Source: Aquisphaera giovannonii
Lineage (GTDB): Bacteria; Planctomycetota; Planctomycetia; Isosphaerales; Isosphaeraceae
Length of the DNA: 64,000 bases
Direction: 5' to 3'
Assembly (NCBI RefSeq): GCF_008087625.1
Contig: NZ_CP042997.1
Location: 5,394,001 to 5,458,000 of the forward strand
Within the stretch, counting starts at the first letter, position 1; every line of letters begins with the position of its first letter. The notes beneath the pieces were generated by a model. That model ran no database searches, was not told where the DNA came from, and worked only from the letters and a program-made list of their open reading frames with translations. This document shows, one piece after another, positions 8,940 through 18,964 of this stretch. Position numbers and translations under genes: made by a program.

Positions 8940-9357
8940 GACCCAGCGAAGGGACGCCGAAGTCCGCGGCCGTTCGTCTCATCGTCGCGGCCGTGACGCT
9001 CCTGGCCGTCACCGGGCGAGCGCCGTCTCAGGAAACGCCCGAGCGACGGGGTCGCCCGCGGCGATGCCGGTGACGACCAACGCCGCCCCGCCACTGCCCG
9101 ATCCCGGCGTGCCCGCCGCGTCGGCCGACCCGGAGGATCCGACTCTCACGTACGGGCTCGTCACCCGACCGACGATCCCCTCTCCCGCGGTGGCTCAGGA
9201 CGGAACAATGTACACGCCCGGTGAGGGCGTGACGATTTCTCTCCTCAATAACACGTCGCGGCTCTGGCTCTCCGCCAGCCTTTCGGCGCTGATGCTATTC
9301 AACTCTCAGCGTCCCTTCACCTCAGGCGCCCCGTTCTTTTTGCTACCTGCTTCGTAA
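8940..9357 (+). pseudogene. porin-like outer-membrane protein, 5' fragment
   Basis: A hydrophobic leader (VRLIVAAVTLLAVTG, about 8970-9020) is in a different frame from the following segment, which reads from about 9064 as TYGLVTRPTIPSPAVAQDG, MYTPGEGVTISLLNN, LWLSASLSALMLF and FTSGAPFFLLPAS. This is the amino-terminal part of the planctomycete porin-like family whose carboxy-terminal part is found 4.85 kb downstream (14205-15067). The TAA that ends the fragment lies within the GTAAGCG at the start of the inserted DNA. No good start codon is visible and one frameshift separates leader and body. The link between the two pieces rests on family recognition and on their order and orientation. Confidence 0.7.
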
Positions 9358-9360
9358 GCG
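9354..9360. repeat. putative IS66 terminal repeat end (GTAAGCG)
   Basis: GTAAGCG begins exactly where the porin reading frame stops matching its family. IS66 elements typically start with GTAA(G/C)CG. No inverse copy was seen near 14200, so the pair is incomplete. Confidence 0.5.
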
Positions 9361-9558
9361 TAATACGGAGTACGCCCCTCCAACCGCAGCGACCCTCCGG
9401 TCAGTGCCTTGGCCTCTTCCTGGTCGATCGCCCGTGTCCGGTGTATCGACGGGTCCCGATCGGAGAGAATGACTGGTAAGGCCCGGTGGCTCGGGGCCGC
9501 CGGCTCGGGCGTAACACATCGGGGAACCCCCTCGATCTCCCGAACAGGGCGGACGGCG

Positions 9559-10014
9559 ATGGCGAAGCGCAAGGACGAAGGCGTTGGCGATACCCGGCTG
9601 GTTTTCTCCGCGCACAACACGCACCACGAGCGCTGTGGTGCCCCGCCTCGCCTGCGCAACACCGACAACCCCGGGCTCTACCACGGCTACTTCGAGAACC
9701 GCTACGGCGAGCAATTCGTCTTCACGTTCGACAGGGCGGCGGGGACCGGAACCGTCTCGGGCGGCGACCTCGGCTGGGCCGAGCCCAGGACGTTCACCCG
9801 CGGCCTGCTCGACGAGGCCCTGCGCAGCACCCGGGACCTCGCCGCGCAGGTCCAGGGGGACGACGCGAGGTCACAGCTGCCGGCGATTGACCACGCCCTG
9901 GCGCTGGGACGACTCACCGGCCTGACCGGCAAGGACGAGATCGTCTGGCTGCGGGCGTGCCTGGAGGCCTGTGCCGGCCTCGCGGAACCGTCCGGGGACC
10001 GTCACCCGGCCTGA
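9559..10014 (+). CDS. conserved hypothetical protein, possible IS passenger
   Basis: A soluble protein of 151 residues with no signal peptide or membrane helix. The start ATG 9559 gives MAKRKDEGVGDTRLVFSA; 50 further in-frame residues upstream look non-coding. The core (HNTHHERCGAPP, LYHGYFENRYGEQFVFTFD, GTVSGGDLGW) is compact, and a helical end follows (KDEIVWLRACLEACAGL). I recall similar small proteins in planctomycete genomes but know no function for them. It runs head-on into the 412-residue gene, with stop codons seven bases apart. Confidence 0.6.
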   Translation: MAKRKDEGVGDTRLVFSAHNTHHERCGAPPRLRNTDNPGLYHGYFENRYGEQFVFTFDRAAGTGTVSGGDLGWAEPRTFTRGLLDEALRSTRDLAAQVQGDDARSQLPAIDHALALGRLTGLTGKDEIVWLRACLEACAGLAEPSGDRHPA

Positions 10015-10021
10015 TCACCGT

Positions 10022-11260
10022 TCACAACGTGGTCACGGCGAACCCCAGATCCTGGCACCGCCGCACGAAGTTGTCGGGGCGGGAGTGGCTCTTGATCAGC
10101 AGGTAGCCGGGCGGGGCGCCCGGTTCGAGGTAGCCCTTGAGCTGCGGGTGCTCGCGGATAGCGGCCAGGACCTCGGCGCTCTCGGGCTTGACCAGCGCAC
10201 TGCACCGGCGGATGCCCACCGTGCCGCCTACCTTCGACTTTGTGCCCAGCAGGTCCGCGACGGGCGAGGGGAGCGGCTCCAGGTCGCGCAGCGCCTCACG
10301 CAACTCTTCACCCGGGGCGCTGCCCGCGGGCGACGCGGCCAGTCGCTTGCGGTCGAGCCGGAACTCGTAGACTTGATCGACCCGCCGGATGATGGCGTGG
10401 CGGAACAGGGGCACCAGTGTCTCCCAGTTCAGCCCCGCTCCCGCAAATACCGAGAGATCCGGCTGTGCCTTCATCACCGTCGCCAGCTCCGGCGCGGGGA
10501 GTGGTGGTCCGAGACCGAGCATCGACAGACCGGTCGGGCTGGGGAACCACCAGCCGGTCTTTTCTTGCTCGGCGTAATAGGCCCACTCGGCGGTATAGAG
10601 GGCGGAGACCAGCGCATTGCGGCCCCGGGCATCGAGCTTCTTCTGCCATCCCGCGACATCGACGCTGTCCACTCTCAGCCTGAGCCCGTGGGCCGCTTGC
10701 ACCAGGTCGTCCTGGGGGAGTCGTATGAAGTCGTGAAGCACCCGACCCACCTCGGACTCGACCAGGGCCAGTCCACGGAAGCACGAGAAGAAGAGCGACA
10801 GCAGCTCGGTCAGGCCCCAGTCCTCCGGGGCCCTGGCGTAGTCAAACGGGTGTCCGGTCTGGGACCCGACGAGCCGCCTGACGGCCCGGCGCGCGATCGC
10901 CGGCAGCTTCGCGTCGTCGTGAGCCCAGAACGTTGCGAGGTTCGGCCCCGCCCCGTAGCGATTCTGCAGGTCGAACCGGAGCACGTCCGCCGCGACGAGG
11001 AACGTCCCGACCCGCTCGGTGAGGTACTGGTTGAAGTTCGCCTCCTTGCCGATGCGGTTCACGTCGGTCATGTTCGGCGTGCCGTCGTGTTTGGCCTGGA
11101 CACGCCCGGACAGGAGGATGCAGGCCACGGCGCGGTACCAGTAACCGCCGTACGGCGAGCGATGTTCCTTCGGCTCGCCTTTCCGGATGTCGGCGACCGT
11201 TCTGGTCGTCTGGCCCTCGACGAACCGCCGGAGGGATTTGGGGAGGCGCGGCTGGCCCAT
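10022..11260 (-). CDS. hypothetical protein with helicase-associated (XPB_N / Helicase_C_3-like) architecture
   Basis: A protein of 412 residues without signal peptide. The C-terminal half (about 225-412) reads like the non-ATPase domain found beside bacterial XPB-type helicases: QPDLSVF, RRVDQVYEFRLDRKRLA, EALRDLEPLPSPVADLL, then an alternating-strand end (SALVKPESAEVLAAI, GYLLIKS, RRCQDLGFAVTTL). No Walker A, Walker B or helicase motif is present. The N-terminal half has GYWYRAVACILLSG and a Trp/Tyr-rich helical segment. It lies 68 bp downstream of the 227-residue gene on the same strand, so the two probably form an operon. A role in DNA handling is possible but only an inference. Confidence 0.6.
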   Translation of the reverse strand: MGQPRLPKSLRRFVEGQTTRTVADIRKGEPKEHRSPYGGYWYRAVACILLSGRVQAKHDGTPNMTDVNRIGKEANFNQYLTERVGTFLVAADVLRFDLQNRYGAGPNLATFWAHDDAKLPAIARRAVRRLVGSQTGHPFDYARAPEDWGLTELLSLFFSCFRGLALVESEVGRVLHDFIRLPQDDLVQAAHGLRLRVDSVDVAGWQKKLDARGRNALVSALYTAEWAYYAEQEKTGWWFPSPTGLSMLGLGPPLPAPELATVMKAQPDLSVFAGAGLNWETLVPLFRHAIIRRVDQVYEFRLDRKRLAASPAGSAPGEELREALRDLEPLPSPVADLLGTKSKVGGTVGIRRCSALVKPESAEVLAAIREHPQLKGYLEPGAPPGYLLIKSHSRPDNFVRRCQDLGFAVTTL

Positions 11261-11328
11261 CGGCGGGGCTCCGACTCACATGAGCAATGGAACAAGTTCG
11301 GGACCGACACCGGCACGAATGCGGGCCG

Positions 11329-12012
11329 TCACGGCGAGACGTTCCAGACCTCGACCAGCCGCCAGCCCGCGCGGGTGCGGGCGACCACGCCGCCGATGTC
11401 CCAGCCGGCCTTGCAGGCACGGGCGATCGCCGCGGGGACGGGGATCGGGCCGATCTCCGAATCACCGCCGAGCAGCGATTCCAGCCAGATCTGCTTCGGC
11501 TCGACCCGCTGGATGACGAAATGCCCCTCGATCTCCTTGCCGGATCGGGCCGGTCCCGTCGCCTCGATCCAGTCGTCGATCGTGTCCAGCAGCTTCTGGC
11601 TGGCCGGCAGGTCGCGGGCAGCCTCACGGACGCGCCCCCGGGCCGCCTCCTCGACCTCGGTGTAGCCCCGCGCGACCAGCCACCGGGTTAGCTTGTTGAC
11701 GACCGTCCCGGCGGCCTTCATCGTCTCGTTGCCGGCGATCACCTTGTGGGGCATGAAGTAGCCGAGGAACTCCGAGAACCCGGAGGCGATGTCGGCGGCG
11801 CCGTACGTGCCGCAGTAGGTCCCCCCGGCCCGGGTGACCGCGTCGTAGTCCTCGCGGGAGTGGTCGGGCCAGTAGCGCTCGAGGTATCCCCGGTAAAGGT
11901 CGATGATCCCCTCGTACCTGGCGTACGTCTTCGGGCCGAGCTGGGCCTCCTGGGCGGCGAGGAACTCCGCGAAGATGTCGTCGATGGTCTTGTCCGGCCT
12001 GGGGGGGCTCAT
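11329..12012 (-). CDS. hypothetical protein with integrase-core-binding-like N-terminus
   Basis: A protein of 227 residues. The start (TIDDIFAEFLAAQEAQLG, KTYARYEGIIDLYRGYLE) resembles the SAM-like core-binding domain of tyrosine recombinases, but no catalytic R..HxxR..Y domain follows. The middle (GFSEFLGYFMPHKVI, AAGTVVNKLTRWLVARGY) continues as helices. The end (AGWDIGGVVARTRAGWRLVEVWNVSP) is beta-rich. The start lies 41 bp beyond the tnpC stop and in the same direction, so transcription from the IS could reach it. Function unknown; DNA binding is plausible. Confidence 0.62.
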   Translation of the reverse strand: MSPPRPDKTIDDIFAEFLAAQEAQLGPKTYARYEGIIDLYRGYLERYWPDHSREDYDAVTRAGGTYCGTYGAADIASGFSEFLGYFMPHKVIAGNETMKAAGTVVNKLTRWLVARGYTEVEEAARGRVREAARDLPASQKLLDTIDDWIEATGPARSGKEIEGHFVIQRVEPKQIWLESLLGGDSEIGPIPVPAAIARACKAGWDIGGVVARTRAGWRLVEVWNVSP

Positions 12013-12053
12013 CGGGTCGTCGGCTCCCGGGGTCGTGTGCGGCTACGCACATT

Positions 12054-13681
12054 CTATCCGGGCCGACGGCGCAGGCCACGCCCCCCTCGGGGCGGTGAAC
12101 CGACCGATACGCAGGCGACACCCTCAGCTCGGCTCGCCGGCTTCATGCGGCCGCCTTCCGGCGCCGCCGGGTGAGACGCGAAACAGACGTCGGGCAGGAG
12201 GCCCTCGAGCTGATCCGCCGGCAGCGACGGCAGGCGACGCAGCACGTCCTGAAGATAAGCGAAGGGGTCGATGTCGTGGTGCCGACAGGTGCCGGTCAGG
12301 GAGTACAGCACGGCCGCCGTGCGGCCGCCCCGGTCGCTGCCCAGGAACGTCCAGTTGCGCCGCCCGATCGCCTGGGCGCGGAGCATCCGCTCGGCGAGGT
12401 TGTTGTCGATGCTCAGTCCCCCGTGCCCGGGGTGGCGACACGGCGCCGCCCAGTTCGACTGCGTGTAGGCGATCGCCTGGCCGATCGGGCTCTTGGGCAG
12501 CGCGTGCCGCTCCTGCTCGGTCAACCACTCCCCGAACGCCGTCAGCCGAGGAACGGACTCCCGCTGCCGCAGGGCCTGACGGTCCTCGGCGGAGAGCGTC
12601 GCGCCGGCGGTCTCGATGGCGTAGAGCCGCCGGATGCGGGCCAGCGCCGCGTGCGCCGGCAGCGGCGCGGACGTCCGCGCCTCGTAGAACTTCCGCCGCG
12701 CGTGTGCCCAGCACGCGACCTCGATCACGTCCGACCCGGCGTACAGCCTGTGGTAGCCGGAGTACGCGTCGGCCTGGAGGTAACCGCGGTACCCGTCAGG
12801 AACCGCGCCGGACCGTCACGGGTGTGGCGCGGCGTGTAGTCACAGACGACGTAGGGATGGCGGGCGTCGCCGATGTAGACCCGGAACCGGCCCTTGCGGG
12901 TCCTGGTCAGACTCCGGTCCAGCACCGGAACCGGGGTGTCGTCGGTGTGGATGATGTCCGGGAGGAGTACTCGCCTGACCATCAGGTCATGGAGCGGCGT
13001 GAGCAGCTTGACGCAGGAGGCCATCCATCCGCAGAGCGTGGCCCGAGACAGCGACACGCCGTGGCGGGAGAAGATGTCCTCGAGCCGGTACAGCGGGAGG
13101 TGGTCGGAGAACTTGCTGGTGATCGTCTGGGCCAGCAGGCCCGGGCCGGGCAGCCCCCGCTCGATCGGCCGCGGCGGCTTCTCCGCCAGCACGACGTGCT
13201 CCTGGCAGGCCCGGCAGGCGTACCGAAACAGCGCGTGCACGACGACGAAAAGCGAGGAGGGCACGTACTCCAGTTGCTCGCTCGTCTCCTCGCCGATCCT
13301 GGTGCGTGGGCAGCCGCAATCCGGACAGGGCAACTCGGGGTCGGACAGCGGGTACTCCACTCGCTTGCGGGGCAGGCCCTCGGGGAGCCGCTGTCGTCCC
13401 TTGCGCCGCCAGTGCCTCTTCGGCTTTGCCACCTCCGGCCCGGGCGCTTCCTCCGGCGTGGCCTCGGCGACGTCCGCCGCCGCGTCCTCGGTGAACAGCC
13501 GGAGTTGGTCCGGATCGACGCGCTCCCGCCGCGGGCTGAACTGGCGGCGGAGCACCAGCCCGAGCTGGTGCTCCAGCTGCTCGATCCGCCGTTGCGCCGC
13601 CCGGATCGTCTCCGCCTGCTGGCGGATGATCTCGTGGCACAGTTCAAGGTCGGTGGGCGGGGGCGTCGCGTGCTCACACAT
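12054..13681 (-). pseudogene. tnpC: IS66 transposase TnpC, single frameshift
   Basis: Two overlapping frames together give a full IS66 transposase. Frame 1 (13681 to about 12793) has the coiled N-terminus, the zinc-finger-like CPDCGCPRTR and CRACQEH motifs, and HTDDTPVPVLD with the first DDE aspartate. Frame 2 (about 12790 to 12054) has QADAYSGYHRLYAG, CWAHARRKFYEAR and NNLAERMLRAQAIGRRNW with the catalytic Glu. Moving from FLTG to YRGYLQ needs one extra base at 12790-12794, so one base appears to have been lost, unless this is a sequencing error. The C-terminal tail after VCFASHP is longer and unlike other IS66 ends, suggesting a lost stop. Confidence 0.9.
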
Positions 13682-13720
13682 GCCAGGATTGTAGCGGCGC
13701 GAACGCGTTCGAAGAGGCCG

Positions 13721-14095
13721 TCAGCGCGGATTCTCGACGGGCTCTCGGGAGTACCGCCGCTGTCGCCGGACGCTGCCCAGGTCGACGCCGTCGAGGATCA
13801 TCATCAGGTCGGCCGCCTTGACCTCCACGCCCTTGGGCCCTCCCCCCGTCGCCGTGGCCGGGAAGCGGAACGTGCCCTTCTCAAGCCTCTTGTACCACAG
13901 GGCGTAGCCGTCCTTGTCCCAGTAGAGGACCTTCACCCTGTCGCCGCGCCGGCTCCGGAACACGAACAGGCGGCCCGAGAGCGGGTCGAGGGTCAGGGAC
14001 GACTGGACCAGGGAGGCGAGCGAGTCGAACCCCTTGCGCATGTCGGTCGCATCGGCGGCGAGGAAGACGCGTACGGTCGGGGGCCAGCTCAGCAC
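13721..14095 (-). CDS. tnpB: IS66 family accessory protein TnpB (Orf2)
   Basis: A protein of 124 residues with the family signature ADATDMRKGFDSLASLV, LFVFRSRRGDRVKVLYWD and YALWYKRLEKGTFRFP. The start is GTG 14095, overlapping the tnpA stop (GTGCTGA). It is required together with TnpC for IS66 transposition. The gene is intact even though both neighbours are broken. Confidence 0.93.
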   Translation of the reverse strand: MLSWPPTVRVFLAADATDMRKGFDSLASLVQSSLTLDPLSGRLFVFRSRRGDRVKVLYWDKDGYALWYKRLEKGTFRFPATATGGGPKGVEVKAADLMMILDGVDLGSVRRQRRYSREPVENPR

Positions 14096-14205
14096 GGGCG
14101 GCCCTCCAGCACGGCGAGGACCTCGCCGAGGGTCCGCGGGTCGAATCCGTGGGGCACCCGCACGATCGTGCCGGCTGGTAGCACGATCTCGATGGCAGGG
14201 ACGGG
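14089..14205 (-). pseudogene. tnpA: IS66 tnpA, 3' stump only
   Basis: Only about 38 C-terminal codons remain (PAIEIVLPAGTIVRVPHGF, then LGEVLAVLEGRPC), overlapping the tnpB start as usual. Upstream of about 14205 the strand-opposite porin sequence takes over. The helix-turn-helix part of TnpA is missing, as is the IS end. Confidence 0.75.
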
Positions 14206-15067
14206 CCGGGGCTGTTGGTCTACTTCGCCTACGGGGAGCTCGTCAACGAGGAATAGCGGTTCGTCGGCGGCCTGATGCAGGACATCGATAATCCCCTCAG
14301 CCCCACGGTTCTCACCCTGGCGAAGCTCTACGGCTCGGGCAACACCGGGTCGTATCGTGGCGCCCTCCGTCTGGAGCGCTACTTCGAGATCACCGACGCC
14401 TCGCAGGTGACACTCCAGGCGGGCATCGGCGAGCCGATCGCCACCCTGGTGACGGCCCCGACCGGCCGCATCAACGAGGACAACGGGTGGCCCAATGTCG
14501 AGGGCCGGGCTGCCCTCGGCTTGGGCGAACTGCGGCAGATCGGGGCGGCCAAGGCACGGCCCTTCGAGACGGGGCTCTCCGGTGTGGTCGGACGGATTCG
14601 CACGACCCGCACGCTCTTCGCAACGCCCGACACGAGACCCCTCCGGGCGGTGGACGACGTCTGGGGCCTCGGCGCCGACCTGCGATGGTCGATCACCGAT
14701 CGCCTCGGGCTGGCCGGCGAGTTCGACGTGGGCCGGACCCTCGGCGAGTACAACGGCACTCTGCTCCAGAACAACGACACGAACACCCCGGGCCCGATCC
14801 GGGGCCGGGGCGGCTGGGGAGAGGTCTTCGTCTACCTGACCGAGACGCTGCGCTGGCATGTCGGGTTACGGCATCGACGCCCCGTTCGTTCGCGACCTCG
14901 CCCCGACCCAGATCGCCCGGAACCAGGCGTTCTTCAATACGCTCGTGTGGGATGTGAACCGGAACTTCCAGGTGGGATTCGAGGTCGACTACCGCAAGGC
15001 GAGCTACATCCGCTTCCTCGACAACGAGGGAGTCAATTTCATGACGCAGTTCGTCTGGAAGTTCTGA
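14205..15067 (+). pseudogene. porin-like outer-membrane protein, 3' fragment (stop and frameshift)
   Basis: The frame from about 14206 reads GLLVYFAYGELVNEE, an in-frame TAG at 14254-14256, then RFVGGLMQDIDNPLSPTVL. Beta-strand-rich sequence follows up to ETLRWHVG near 14866. There an extra T (GGGTTACGG) shifts the frame, and the protein continues as YGIDAPFVRDLAPTQIARN and NFQVGFEVDYRKASYI to a terminal aromatic strand, MTQFVWKF. A final Phe on an amphipathic strand is typical of outer-membrane barrels. It ends 11 bp from the stop of the convergent amidohydrolase gene. With the 5' fragment at 8940-9357 it makes one disrupted gene. Confidence 0.8.
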
Positions 15068-15078
15068 GCCCCGCCCGG

Positions 15079-16977
15079 TCAGTCGGAGCAGGTGTACCCG
15101 ATCAGACGGGCGAGCTGCTCGATCGCGGCGTGCTCAACACGCAAATCGCTCACCGTGTCGGCGAGGCCCGGGCCCCGGCCTCGCGGGGCGGCGGCCGCCC
15201 TCGTCGCCGCGGCGACCGGTTGGAGCCGTCCCTCGAGCATGGTGCCCCAGACGGGGATGTCCTTGATTTTTGCGGGATGGACCTCGTACGGGTCCTGCTC
15301 CAGGACGGTCAGGTTGGCATCCTTGCCCACCGTGATCGAACCGACGCGTCCCTCCATGCGGACGGAATACGCGGCATCGAGCGTGACGGCCTTCAGGGCC
15401 TGGTCGAGCGTGACGCGGTGCTCCGGACCGGCGACCTCCCCCTCGGCCGTGAGCCGGTTGACCGCCGCCCAGACGAGCTGCAACGGCTTCGCCGGGGCCA
15501 TCGGCATGTCGGAGTGGAAGGAGAACGAAACGCCGTTCTCGACCACGTCGCCCATCGGGACCATGTTCCGGGACCGCTCGGGGCCGATGCCTAGCTTCGC
15601 ATACCGGCCGGCGAGCGCCGTGACGTAGTAGGGGTTCGAGCTGACGATCCCGCCCAGCTCGCCCCAGCGCCTCACCTGCTCGGGCTGTGCGAACCCGAAG
15701 TGCACCAGCACGGTGCGGTGGTCCTTGCGTGGCTTGCGCCTCATCGCCTCCTCGATCGAGCTGAGCACGACGTCCAGGCCGGCGTCGCCGTTGTTGTGGA
15801 TGTGGATCTGGTAGCCGGCGTCCCAGTAGGTCTGGAACATGAAGTCGAACGACGGCGGGTCGACGATCCACGCGCCGTGGTGGCCGTCGGTGTAGCCGCC
15901 CTTCATCTGCATGAGCTGGCTGTAGATCGCCCCGTCGGTGAAGAGCTTCACCTGGTTGGCCAGGTACGCGGTGCGGCCCTTGCCCCAGCCCTCGACCTTG
16001 CGGGTCTCGGCGAGCAGGCTCGCCGCGTCGTTGGGCTTGATCGCGAAGAAGCTCTTCCCGTCCCCGATGAAGTAGTGGTTGAACGGCGTCGCGTCGTCCG
16101 AGTACGCCGCGTTGATCGCGTCCTGCATCGGCTTGCTCACGAACCCGCCCGGCTCGCAGGCGAGGGTGATTCCGTTGCGGTGATAGTACGTCTTCGAGAA
16201 CTCGAGCCCTTCGCGGAATTGCTCGGCCGAGGCCATGTAGGGCGCGACTCTGGGATGGATCGCGAGCATCCCCTGCTCGTAGAAGTGGCCCTCCGGCAGG
16301 CTGGCCTGCGCCCTCGCGGACTCGCCCAGGCCCTTGATTAGGGCTTCGTCGATGCCGGTGAGCTTGAGCGCAGCATCGTTGAGAAACACCTCGTGCGCGG
16401 AGCGGTGCCAGACGATCACCGGGACGTCGGGGGCCATCCTGTTGAGCGTCTCGCGCGACATCGCGCCGTGGAAGTAGTGGTGGTAACCCCAGGTCACGAA
16501 GGGCGTCTTGTTGTCCTTGTGGCCGGCGAGCGCCTCCCTCAGGCGCTCCCGGTAGCCCGCCTCTTCGCGCACCGCCGGCGAGAAACCGTCGATCGCGTCC
16601 CAGTCCTCGATCGAGATGACCTTTGTGTTCATGGTCAGCGCCGCCAGCACCGGATGGACGTGCTGCTCGACGAAACCGGCGATGACCACCTTGCCCTCGA
16701 AGGTCGAGTCGACCTTCGCGTCCTTGCCGGCGGCGGCCTCGCACTCGGCTCGCGTGCCGACCGCGACGAACTCGCCGCCGCGCACCGCGATCGCTTCGGC
16801 CCGCGGCTTGTTCGGGTCCATGGTCAGGAAGGTCCGGGCGACGTAGATCGTCGTCAGGCCCTCTCTCGCGGCAAGCCGGCCGGCGAAATCCTGAAGCGTG
16901 GGCGTCTGCTGAGCCACGACCTGCCCGGGGGCGAGCATGCACGCCAGCACGAATATCGCGGAGAGGCGGTTTATCAT
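15079..16977 (-). CDS. exported YtcJ/NfdA-like metal-dependent amidohydrolase (1)
   Basis: A protein of 632 residues from ATG 16977 with a signal peptide (MINRLSAIFVLACMLAPGQVVAQ). It is an Amidohydro_3 protein: N-terminal strand IYVARTFLTMDP, metal motif VEQHVHP, a mid-protein metal site around QIHIHNNGDA, VLVHFGFAQP, HSDMPMAP near the end of the barrel, and the closing GSITVGKDANLTVLEQDP. YtcJ relatives include N-substituted-formamide deformylase. The substrate is unknown. It overlaps the upstream amidohydrolase gene by four bases (ATGA), indicating translational coupling. Its location should be periplasmic. Confidence 0.9.
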   Translation of the reverse strand: MINRLSAIFVLACMLAPGQVVAQQTPTLQDFAGRLAAREGLTTIYVARTFLTMDPNKPRAEAIAVRGGEFVAVGTRAECEAAAGKDAKVDSTFEGKVVIAGFVEQHVHPVLAALTMNTKVISIEDWDAIDGFSPAVREEAGYRERLREALAGHKDNKTPFVTWGYHHYFHGAMSRETLNRMAPDVPVIVWHRSAHEVFLNDAALKLTGIDEALIKGLGESARAQASLPEGHFYEQGMLAIHPRVAPYMASAEQFREGLEFSKTYYHRNGITLACEPGGFVSKPMQDAINAAYSDDATPFNHYFIGDGKSFFAIKPNDAASLLAETRKVEGWGKGRTAYLANQVKLFTDGAIYSQLMQMKGGYTDGHHGAWIVDPPSFDFMFQTYWDAGYQIHIHNNGDAGLDVVLSSIEEAMRRKPRKDHRTVLVHFGFAQPEQVRRWGELGGIVSSNPYYVTALAGRYAKLGIGPERSRNMVPMGDVVENGVSFSFHSDMPMAPAKPLQLVWAAVNRLTAEGEVAGPEHRVTLDQALKAVTLDAAYSVRMEGRVGSITVGKDANLTVLEQDPYEVHPAKIKDIPVWGTMLEGRLQPVAAATRAAAAPRGRGPGLADTVSDLRVEHAAIEQLARLIGYTCSD

Positions 16978-18698
16978 CGTTTCGAGTCTCCGTGCCGGGC
17001 GCGGTAGACGGTCTTCCCTTCCTTGATCGTCTCCAGCACCCGGATGGTGTTGATCCTCATCGGGTCGATCGTCAGTGGGTCGTCCGAGAGGATCACCAGG
17101 TCGGCGAGCTTGCCGACCTCGAGCGAGCCCTTCCTCCCCTCTTCGAAGTGCTGGTAGGCCCCCCACAGGGTGATGCACTTGAGCGCCTCCATGGGCGTCA
17201 ACCGTTCCGCCGGGCCCATCACCTTCCCTTGACGCGAGACGCGGTTGACGGTGGCCCACATGACCTGGAGCAGGTTGGGCAAGGCCACCGGCGCGTCGGT
17301 GTGGCTGTTGACCCTCAGGCCGCGGTCAAGGGCGGAGCGCATGGGCGAGATCTGCTGGGCCAGTTCAGGGCCGATGATCCGGTCGTACCAATCGCCCCAG
17401 TAGAAGGTGTGCATGGGGAAGAGCGAGGCGAAGACGTCCAGCTTCTTCAGGGCGTCGAGCTGATCCTTACGGACGAACTGGCCGTGGATGAGGGTGTGGC
17501 GGCGATCGGCTTTCGGGTACCTGACGTCGACGGCGCGGAGGGCGGCGATCATCTGGTCTACGGCGGCGTCACCGTTGGCGTGGACGTGCGTGGGCCATCC
17601 CTTGCGGTAGGCCTCGTCGAGGAGTTCGACGATCGATTGCATCTCGGGGATGGCCGGGTAGCCCTTGTAGCCGGGCTGCTGGCCATCGGGCGGGACGAGG
17701 TAGGGGACGGTGCGCCAGGCGGTGCGGCCCTGGGGAGAGCCGTCGAGCGTGATCTTCAGTCCCGCGAGGCGGTAGCGGTTCCGGTAGGAGTGTCCGAACC
17801 AGGGCGTGTCGAGCAGAGACTTGGCCGTGTAGTCGACGTAGGACATGACGTCGATGTCGAGCAAACCACGCTCCGCGGCACTCACGAGGTCCGGCTGCTG
17901 GAAGGCCATGAGGCGGCCCTCGTTGACCGTCGTGTAGCCGAACGACTTCGCCAGCTCGAGCCCGCGACGGAGGAAGTAGTCCTTGTCCTCCGGGGTCCGC
18001 GCGTTGATCGCCGGGATCATTTGGGGGATGCTCGCTAGCTCCTCGAGCACGCCGTTCGGTTCCCGGCTCCCCTCCCGGCGCCGGATGACGCCCCCCTCAG
18101 GGTCGGGCGTCTCCGCCGTGTAGCCGACCTTCGCGAGCCCCACGCTATTCATCGCGCTGAAGTGGCCGGAGATGTGCACGGCGATGACCGGCACGTCTTT
18201 CGATACCTTGTCGAGGTCATCGCGAGTCGGGTGGCGACCGAGCAATGCGTCGTCGTAGCCGATGCCGAAGATCCATCCGGTGCGGCCGACGTCCGGGCCG
18301 CGTGCGAAGTCCTTCAGCTTCTCGACCACGTCGTCGATGCTCGCAACGTCCCCGTCGGGCGAGGCGAGGAGATTGGCGCCGACGGCCTGCGACCCGAAGC
18401 CGAGGAAGTGGGCGTGCCCGTCGACGAAGCCAGGCAGCAGCGTCTTGCCAGCCAGGTCGACCACCTCCGTAGCCGGCCCCTGGTGAGTACCCTGGAACTC
18501 GGCCCGGCTGCCAACGCCGAGGACCTTTCCGTCTTTCACCGCCACGGCCTCGGCGGTCGGCTGCGCGTCGTTCACGGTGACGATCGGGCCGCCAGTGTAA
18601 ATCGTGTCCGCGACCTGGGCCCGGGCAGCCGAGCCGAACGCAGCGACGGAATAGGCAGCGATGATCCTGACCAGAAATGCCCTGCTGCTCGCGATCAT
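16974..18698 (-). CDS. exported YtcJ/NfdA-like metal-dependent amidohydrolase (2)
   Basis: A protein of 574 residues from ATG 18698, chosen because it gives a good signal peptide (MIASSRAFLVRIIAAYS to SAARAQ); an ATG at 18770 would add 24 residues. Family marks are DTIYTGGPIVTVND, LLPGFVDGHAHFLGFG, THVHANGDAAVDQM, HTLIHGQFV, NSHTDAPVALPN and GSLEVGKLADLVILSDDP. It is related to but clearly different from the following amidohydrolase, with which it is coupled by a 4-bp overlap. The intervals around it point to a unit with the UrtA-like gene 0.5 kb upstream. The substrate is likely an amide or formamide, by family only. Confidence 0.9.
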   Translation of the reverse strand: MIASSRAFLVRIIAAYSVAAFGSAARAQVADTIYTGGPIVTVNDAQPTAEAVAVKDGKVLGVGSRAEFQGTHQGPATEVVDLAGKTLLPGFVDGHAHFLGFGSQAVGANLLASPDGDVASIDDVVEKLKDFARGPDVGRTGWIFGIGYDDALLGRHPTRDDLDKVSKDVPVIAVHISGHFSAMNSVGLAKVGYTAETPDPEGGVIRRREGSREPNGVLEELASIPQMIPAINARTPEDKDYFLRRGLELAKSFGYTTVNEGRLMAFQQPDLVSAAERGLLDIDVMSYVDYTAKSLLDTPWFGHSYRNRYRLAGLKITLDGSPQGRTAWRTVPYLVPPDGQQPGYKGYPAIPEMQSIVELLDEAYRKGWPTHVHANGDAAVDQMIAALRAVDVRYPKADRRHTLIHGQFVRKDQLDALKKLDVFASLFPMHTFYWGDWYDRIIGPELAQQISPMRSALDRGLRVNSHTDAPVALPNLLQVMWATVNRVSRQGKVMGPAERLTPMEALKCITLWGAYQHFEEGRKGSLEVGKLADLVILSDDPLTIDPMRINTIRVLETIKEGKTVYRARHGDSKR

Positions 18699-18964
18699 CG
18701 GCAAGATCCCGCTGAGAGGAAGGAATTCACCAGCCAAGTGGTTTCTGTGAGAGGTACGGCTGACCGTCATGCCTCACTCCTCGGTGAGGATTTGTCTCGG
18801 GTGGTGGGCGAGTCACTCGATGCAGCCTCTGTGAGGGCGGCCGTCGGTTGAGATGCCTGCCATGGCCAGCCCTTCGCAGCGGCCGGCGCAAGCCCCGTGC
18901 TTTTCTGGGCGGACGGGACAGCGCCTCTTCAAATATGGATCATCCATGAGGTCTCGCCGCTGGC

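Follow-up and report, generated by a model that had tools for sequence, protein, structure and literature searches.

The window, by which we mean the whole analysed stretch of 64,000 nucleotides (G000:C1:5394001-5458000 of the 10.5-Mb Aquisphaera giovannonii genome), contains two pieces of a porin-like gene that lie in the same direction and are separated by 4.85 kb of inserted DNA (Table 1). This insert opens with an IS66-type terminal repeat, followed by three open reading frames (A, B and C) and the transposition genes tnpC and tnpB, and it closes with a fragment of tnpA; a pair of genes with Amidohydro_3 domains follows the 3' piece. We identified tnpC and tnpB by Pfam/NCBIfam searches and the tnpA remnant by its match to the tnpA gene of a related genome (G012). 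The tnpC gene returns PF03050, PF13005, PF13007 and PF13817, with the DDE_Tnp_IS66 domain split over two frames, and its frameshifts are seen directly as gaps against the intact tnpC of G012.

Table 1. Features of the interrupted locus (positions within the window).
Feature	Position	Strand	Remarks
5' piece of putative porin pseudogene	9064-9353	+	Homology from ~9202; stop codon TAA supplied by the IS end
IS66-type terminal repeat, left end of element	9354-9376	+	GTAAGCGTAATACGGAGTACGCC; end downstream of tnpC and cargo
Cargo gene A	9562-10014	+	ORF, ~150 aa; small planctomycete family
Cargo gene B	10022-11260	-	ORF, 412 aa; remote likeness to Helicase_C_3 (PF13625) in the C-terminal part
Cargo gene C	11329-12012	-	227 aa; integrase-type SAM-like N-domain and small beta-barrel
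IS66 tnpC (DDE transposase)	12125-13681	-	Frameshifts at ~12797 and, near the C-terminus, ~12160
IS66 tnpB	13721-14095	-	Intact ORF; TnpB_IS66, E 2e-34
IS66 tnpA, C-terminal fragment	14089-14193	-	~35 of ~132 codons; homology to G012 tnpA stops at 14193
Deletion junction	14194-14208		IS homology ends at 14193, porin homology starts at 14209
3' piece of putative porin pseudogene	14209-15067	+	394.9 bits to profile; TAG at 14254, frameshift near 14860
Amidohydro_3 pair	15079-17259 and 16974-18770 (15079-18770)	-	Pfam PF07969; adjoins porin 3' piece

The identity of the two porin pieces was established with a profile built from 21 intact planctomycete homologues, all taken from other genomes. The translation of 9064-9354 matches this profile with 41.1 bits (E 5e-15, model positions 106-156), and the 3' piece matches positions 207-485 and extends to the C-terminal Phe. 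When the entire genome was compared with a second, broader porin profile, just three matching stretches were returned, all of them at this locus, collinear and on one strand: the 5' piece (model 100-146, E 1.4e-5), the 3' piece (model 193-408, with one TAG inside) and, in another frame, the end of the 3' piece (model 405-473). Since this search of the 10.5 Mb returned these three collinear stretches only, without a further copy of the family, the two pieces belong to one gene and the genome yields a single copy of the family. Between the pieces, 50 model positions are absent, and direct counting on the closest homologue (L074) gave exactly 50 residues in the gap region. At the site of the TAG in the 3' piece, tryptophan is the residue of most relatives; the frameshift forms a second small lesion further downstream. 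On the strength of the profile matches, both pieces are thus parts of one porin-like gene, as the preliminary description of the locus had proposed; the TAG and the frameshift, which it had not noticed, make this gene a multiply broken pseudogene. Just upstream of the 5' piece, a stretch resembling a signal peptide (AAVRLIVAAVTLLAVTGRAPSQ, 8950-9060) is found in another frame; no start codon was seen there, and a further frameshift in the porin gene is possible.

Intact members of the family to which the split gene belongs come mainly from planctomycetes outside the Isosphaeraceae, and also from cyanobacteria. PF19577 (DcaP) is touched by 3 of 12 family members, with a best E of 0.002, and the closest relative has no match to it; for most members, sequence comparison with Pfam, NCBIfam and PDB gave nothing significant, and no PDB relative of the porin was found by sequence. 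This weak profile similarity and the C-terminal Phe are shared with the DcaP-like outer-membrane porins, from which the planctomycete/cyanobacterial family is nevertheless separate, so that the label "DcaP-like porin" for the split gene is likely rather than proven. Among 44 genomes of the Isosphaeraceae, no match to the 3' piece of near strength was obtained (one match at 34% identity, in G027, was at chance level and was rejected), nor was an empty site. The alignment to intact porins that had been suggested for the Isosphaeraceae was made with members of other families, and it did reveal the loss of ~50 residues. The preliminary description had also placed the porin beside an amide-related cluster, which holds insofar as two Amidohydro_3 genes follow it. 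By tblastn to the porin loci, relatives of these two genes were found to adjoin intact porins in Gemmata (69% identity), Pirellula, other planctomycetes and several cyanobacteria (loci L089, L074, L076-L082 and L091-L095). Because this arrangement recurs in these genomes, the pairing of the porin-like family with Amidohydro_3 genes is conserved in planctomycetes and cyanobacteria.

The nature of the inserted DNA became apparent from a family-wide DNA search, which was the decisive step in finding a homologous element on contig 498 of G012. This contig aligns with the insert at 84% identity over 9353-11279 and at 78% over 11333-14193, with ~1.2 kb extra in G012 between the two blocks. Read on the reverse strand, the G012 element consists of GTAAGCGTATTACGGACCACGCC, A, B, an additional gene D (HEAT-like at E 0.015), C, tnpC, tnpB, tnpA and the inverted end GTACGCGTCTTACGAACCCC. 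Its transposition genes are intact (tnpC with 513 aa, tnpB, and tnpA with 132 aa), and its two ends, GTAAGCGTATTACGGACC and the inverted GTACGCGTCTTACGAACC, match at 16 of 20 bases. Thus, the three transposition genes and terminal inverted repeats of the GTAA/GTAC type that characterise IS66 are all found across the two copies, the right end being missing from the window. Genes unrelated to transposition lie between tnpC and the distal end, as in the passenger-carrying tIS66 elements: A, B and C in the window, and A, B, D and C inside both ends in G012. The motif GTAAGCG occurs three times in the window against 2.5 expected by chance, and we therefore rejected it as evidence of an IS end when taken alone; the homology to G012, however, starts exactly at this end and is absent before it, which makes 9354 the true boundary. 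The claim that GTAAGCG represents an IS66-type end that also provides the stop codon of the 5' piece is borne out by this comparison, as is the truncation of tnpA. The insert size of 4.85 kb given previously also stands, whereas its limits had to be shifted: the left end begins with the G at 9354 rather than at 9358, and the element and porin homologies on the right end and start at ~14193 and 14209.

The same unit is encountered elsewhere. In G001, of the same genus, a left end of the same type (GTAAGCGCATAGCGAACC) lies inside an AbiEi_4 (abiEi) gene; behind it come A, B and C (92% identical at the DNA level), with no transposase accompanying them. As an observation on this site, the AbiEi_4 antitoxin-type gene (L102:1027-1767) is ended by the left end of the element, with GTAAGCG again giving TAA. 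As left end and cargo occur in the porin gene of the window, at the G012 site and in the abiEi gene of G001, three insertion sites unrelated to one another are occupied by this unit. Judged from these homologies, the 4.85-kb insert is one IS66 transposon with three cargo genes and not an IS66 remnant with stray genes: the preliminary description had rightly recorded both components but had treated as separate what in G012 lies inside the IS66 ends. The A. giovannonii genome additionally harbours two classic IS66 copies (L032:1535-4177 and L033:1557-4166; one at G000:C1 ~5275034-5277676), which are 95% identical to each other. They share the family, the terminal GTAAGCG and tnpABC with the window element, but differ from it in their length of 2.64 kb, in carrying no cargo, in their transposase region (~67-70% identity) and in the presence of an 8-bp target duplication (ATATCAGA, read at one copy), and so illustrate the ends and target behaviour of the family in this host. 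In the window, CCTGCTTC precedes the left end and has no second copy nearby; the target duplication is unreadable there because the second copy would fall in the deleted part. The G012 contig stops exactly at the right terminus, leaving the outer flank and duplication of that element unreadable as well.

Gene A, whose small family is scattered through the Planctomycetia, has homologues in G001 (84%), G012 (78%) and G038 (69%), with fragments in other Planctomycetia. In case of gene B, homologues with 87, 81, 63 and 51% identity were found in four of 398 genomes of the class; its profile reaches proteins with Helicase_C_3, to which the G012 protein itself matches at E 0.053. The 51% homologue in G527 (L113:4331-8990) has in its vicinity a large serine recombinase (Resolvase and Recombinase domains) that is broken, suggesting that it may be carried by another mobile element. 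The fold matches obtained for gene B were disregarded, its structure model being too poor (pLDDT 62). Gene C weakly matches Phage_int_SAM_3, and its model (pLDDT 86) resembles the integrase N-domain 3nrw (probability 0.99, E 0.07), followed by a small beta-barrel; this likeness is suggestive only, and the protein, for which neither a Phage_integrase match nor a catalytic recombinase domain was found, does not qualify as a tyrosine recombinase. A distant homologue of gene C adjoins a PRiA4_ORF3 gene. Searches of PHROGs with the cargo, of plasmids with gene B and of viral contigs with genes B and C gave no relatives, and an assignment to known defence genes was rejected: the sole PADLOC match, of one homologue to Dsr1, is weak (E 0.017), and we do not credit it. 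Amongst the three elements, dN/dS is 0.28-0.34 for B, 0.35-0.62 for C and about 0.5-0.6 (0.49-0.59) for A; these ratios, being below 1, indicate that the cargo coded for proteins under moderate purifying selection for most of its history, although they are no proof of present function. Between gene C of the window (11329-12012) and that of G001 (L102:3721-4404), dS is 0.06, compared with ~0.19 for A and B, hinting at a possible mosaic exchange.

In comparison with G012, the window lacks ~375 bp on the tnpA side, and in comparison with intact porins it lacks ~150 bp (~50 codons). Both losses meet at the junction with nothing between them, and for this reason they point to one later deletion of ~525 bp, in agreement with the deletion postulated previously. 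A tIS66 element with the arrangement left end - A - B - C - tnpC - tnpB - tnpA - right end would have transposed into a DcaP-like porin gene adjoining the two amidohydrolase genes; after this insertion, we infer, the deletion would have brought the interior of tnpA up against the 3' piece of the porin gene, removing the right IS end and ~50 porin codons. Subsequent decay would then have affected both the transposase, through frameshifts and the loss of tnpA, and the porin, through the TAG and its frameshift, with the three cargo frames staying open. We hold this account as a whole to be highly probable, even though no target duplication is visible and the 44 Isosphaeraceae genomes supplied no empty site; loss of channel function in the host and mobility of the complete version of the element presumably go with it.

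Other explanations of the locus can be weighed against these data. That the two pieces stem from different proteins brought together by chance could be argued from the 5' piece, in which only ~50 residues are recognisable and for which pairwise BLAST gave nothing significant. Against this, the best of the shuffled 5' peptides reached only 7.2 bits with the profile that gave 41.1 bits for the real one, the position is collinear, and the genome-wide scan returned this site only, such that the idea carries a negligible probability. Two independent events, namely a plain IS66 insertion into the porin and a separate arrival of the three genes alongside it, with GTAAGCG on the left due to chance, would fit the chance-level frequency of the motif and the occurrence of A, B and C singly, without IS66, in G038, G025 and G527. 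We regard this too as very improbable: G012 has the same genes between intact tnpABC and the same left end, exactly where the homology starts, and in G001 this end is again accompanied by these genes, at a different site.

An alternative with more weight, albeit still an unlikely one, is that a small lesion had already killed the porin and the transposon landed without effect in a pseudogene. The TAG and the frameshift, present besides the insertion, speak for such a history; yet these are what pseudogenes gather after inactivation, and the single deletion that accounts for the loss of the IS end as well as of the porin middle has to postdate the insertion. Since the porin carries a stop and a frameshift in addition to the insertion, it cannot be told if the insertion or one of the small lesions was the first to inactivate it.

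Beyond the preferred account of a cargo-bearing IS66 insertion with later decay, we offer as a rather doubtful suggestion that A, B and C might form a functional module (perhaps for defence, regulation or maintenance of the element), spread among planctomycetes by IS66 and kept after loss of the transposase in the window and in G001. ISfinder contains 254 IS66 members, and 7 of 25 members from Pseudomonas carry passenger genes (tIS66; 2026 paper, PMC12888890). The plan of such elements is therefore already known, the cargo described here being new: as in ISPa75-fosZ of Pseudomonas (PMC12888890), tnpA-tnpB-tnpC are followed by passengers between tnpC and the distal end, and the ends begin with GTAA(G/C)CG. 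In contrast to ISPa75-fosZ, the host is a planctomycete, three or four cargo genes without known function take the place of a resistance gene, and the copy in the window is missing one end and the transposase reading frame. Our findings thus place a planctomycete IS66 element with multi-gene cargo alongside the resistance elements of Pseudomonas from which this kind is known, and one complete copy (G012) together with two decayed copies shows the transposase being lost while the cargo stays open. The locus moreover gives an indication that porin-like genes of this family and Amidohydro_3 genes are conserved neighbours, in cyanobacteria as well as in planctomycetes.
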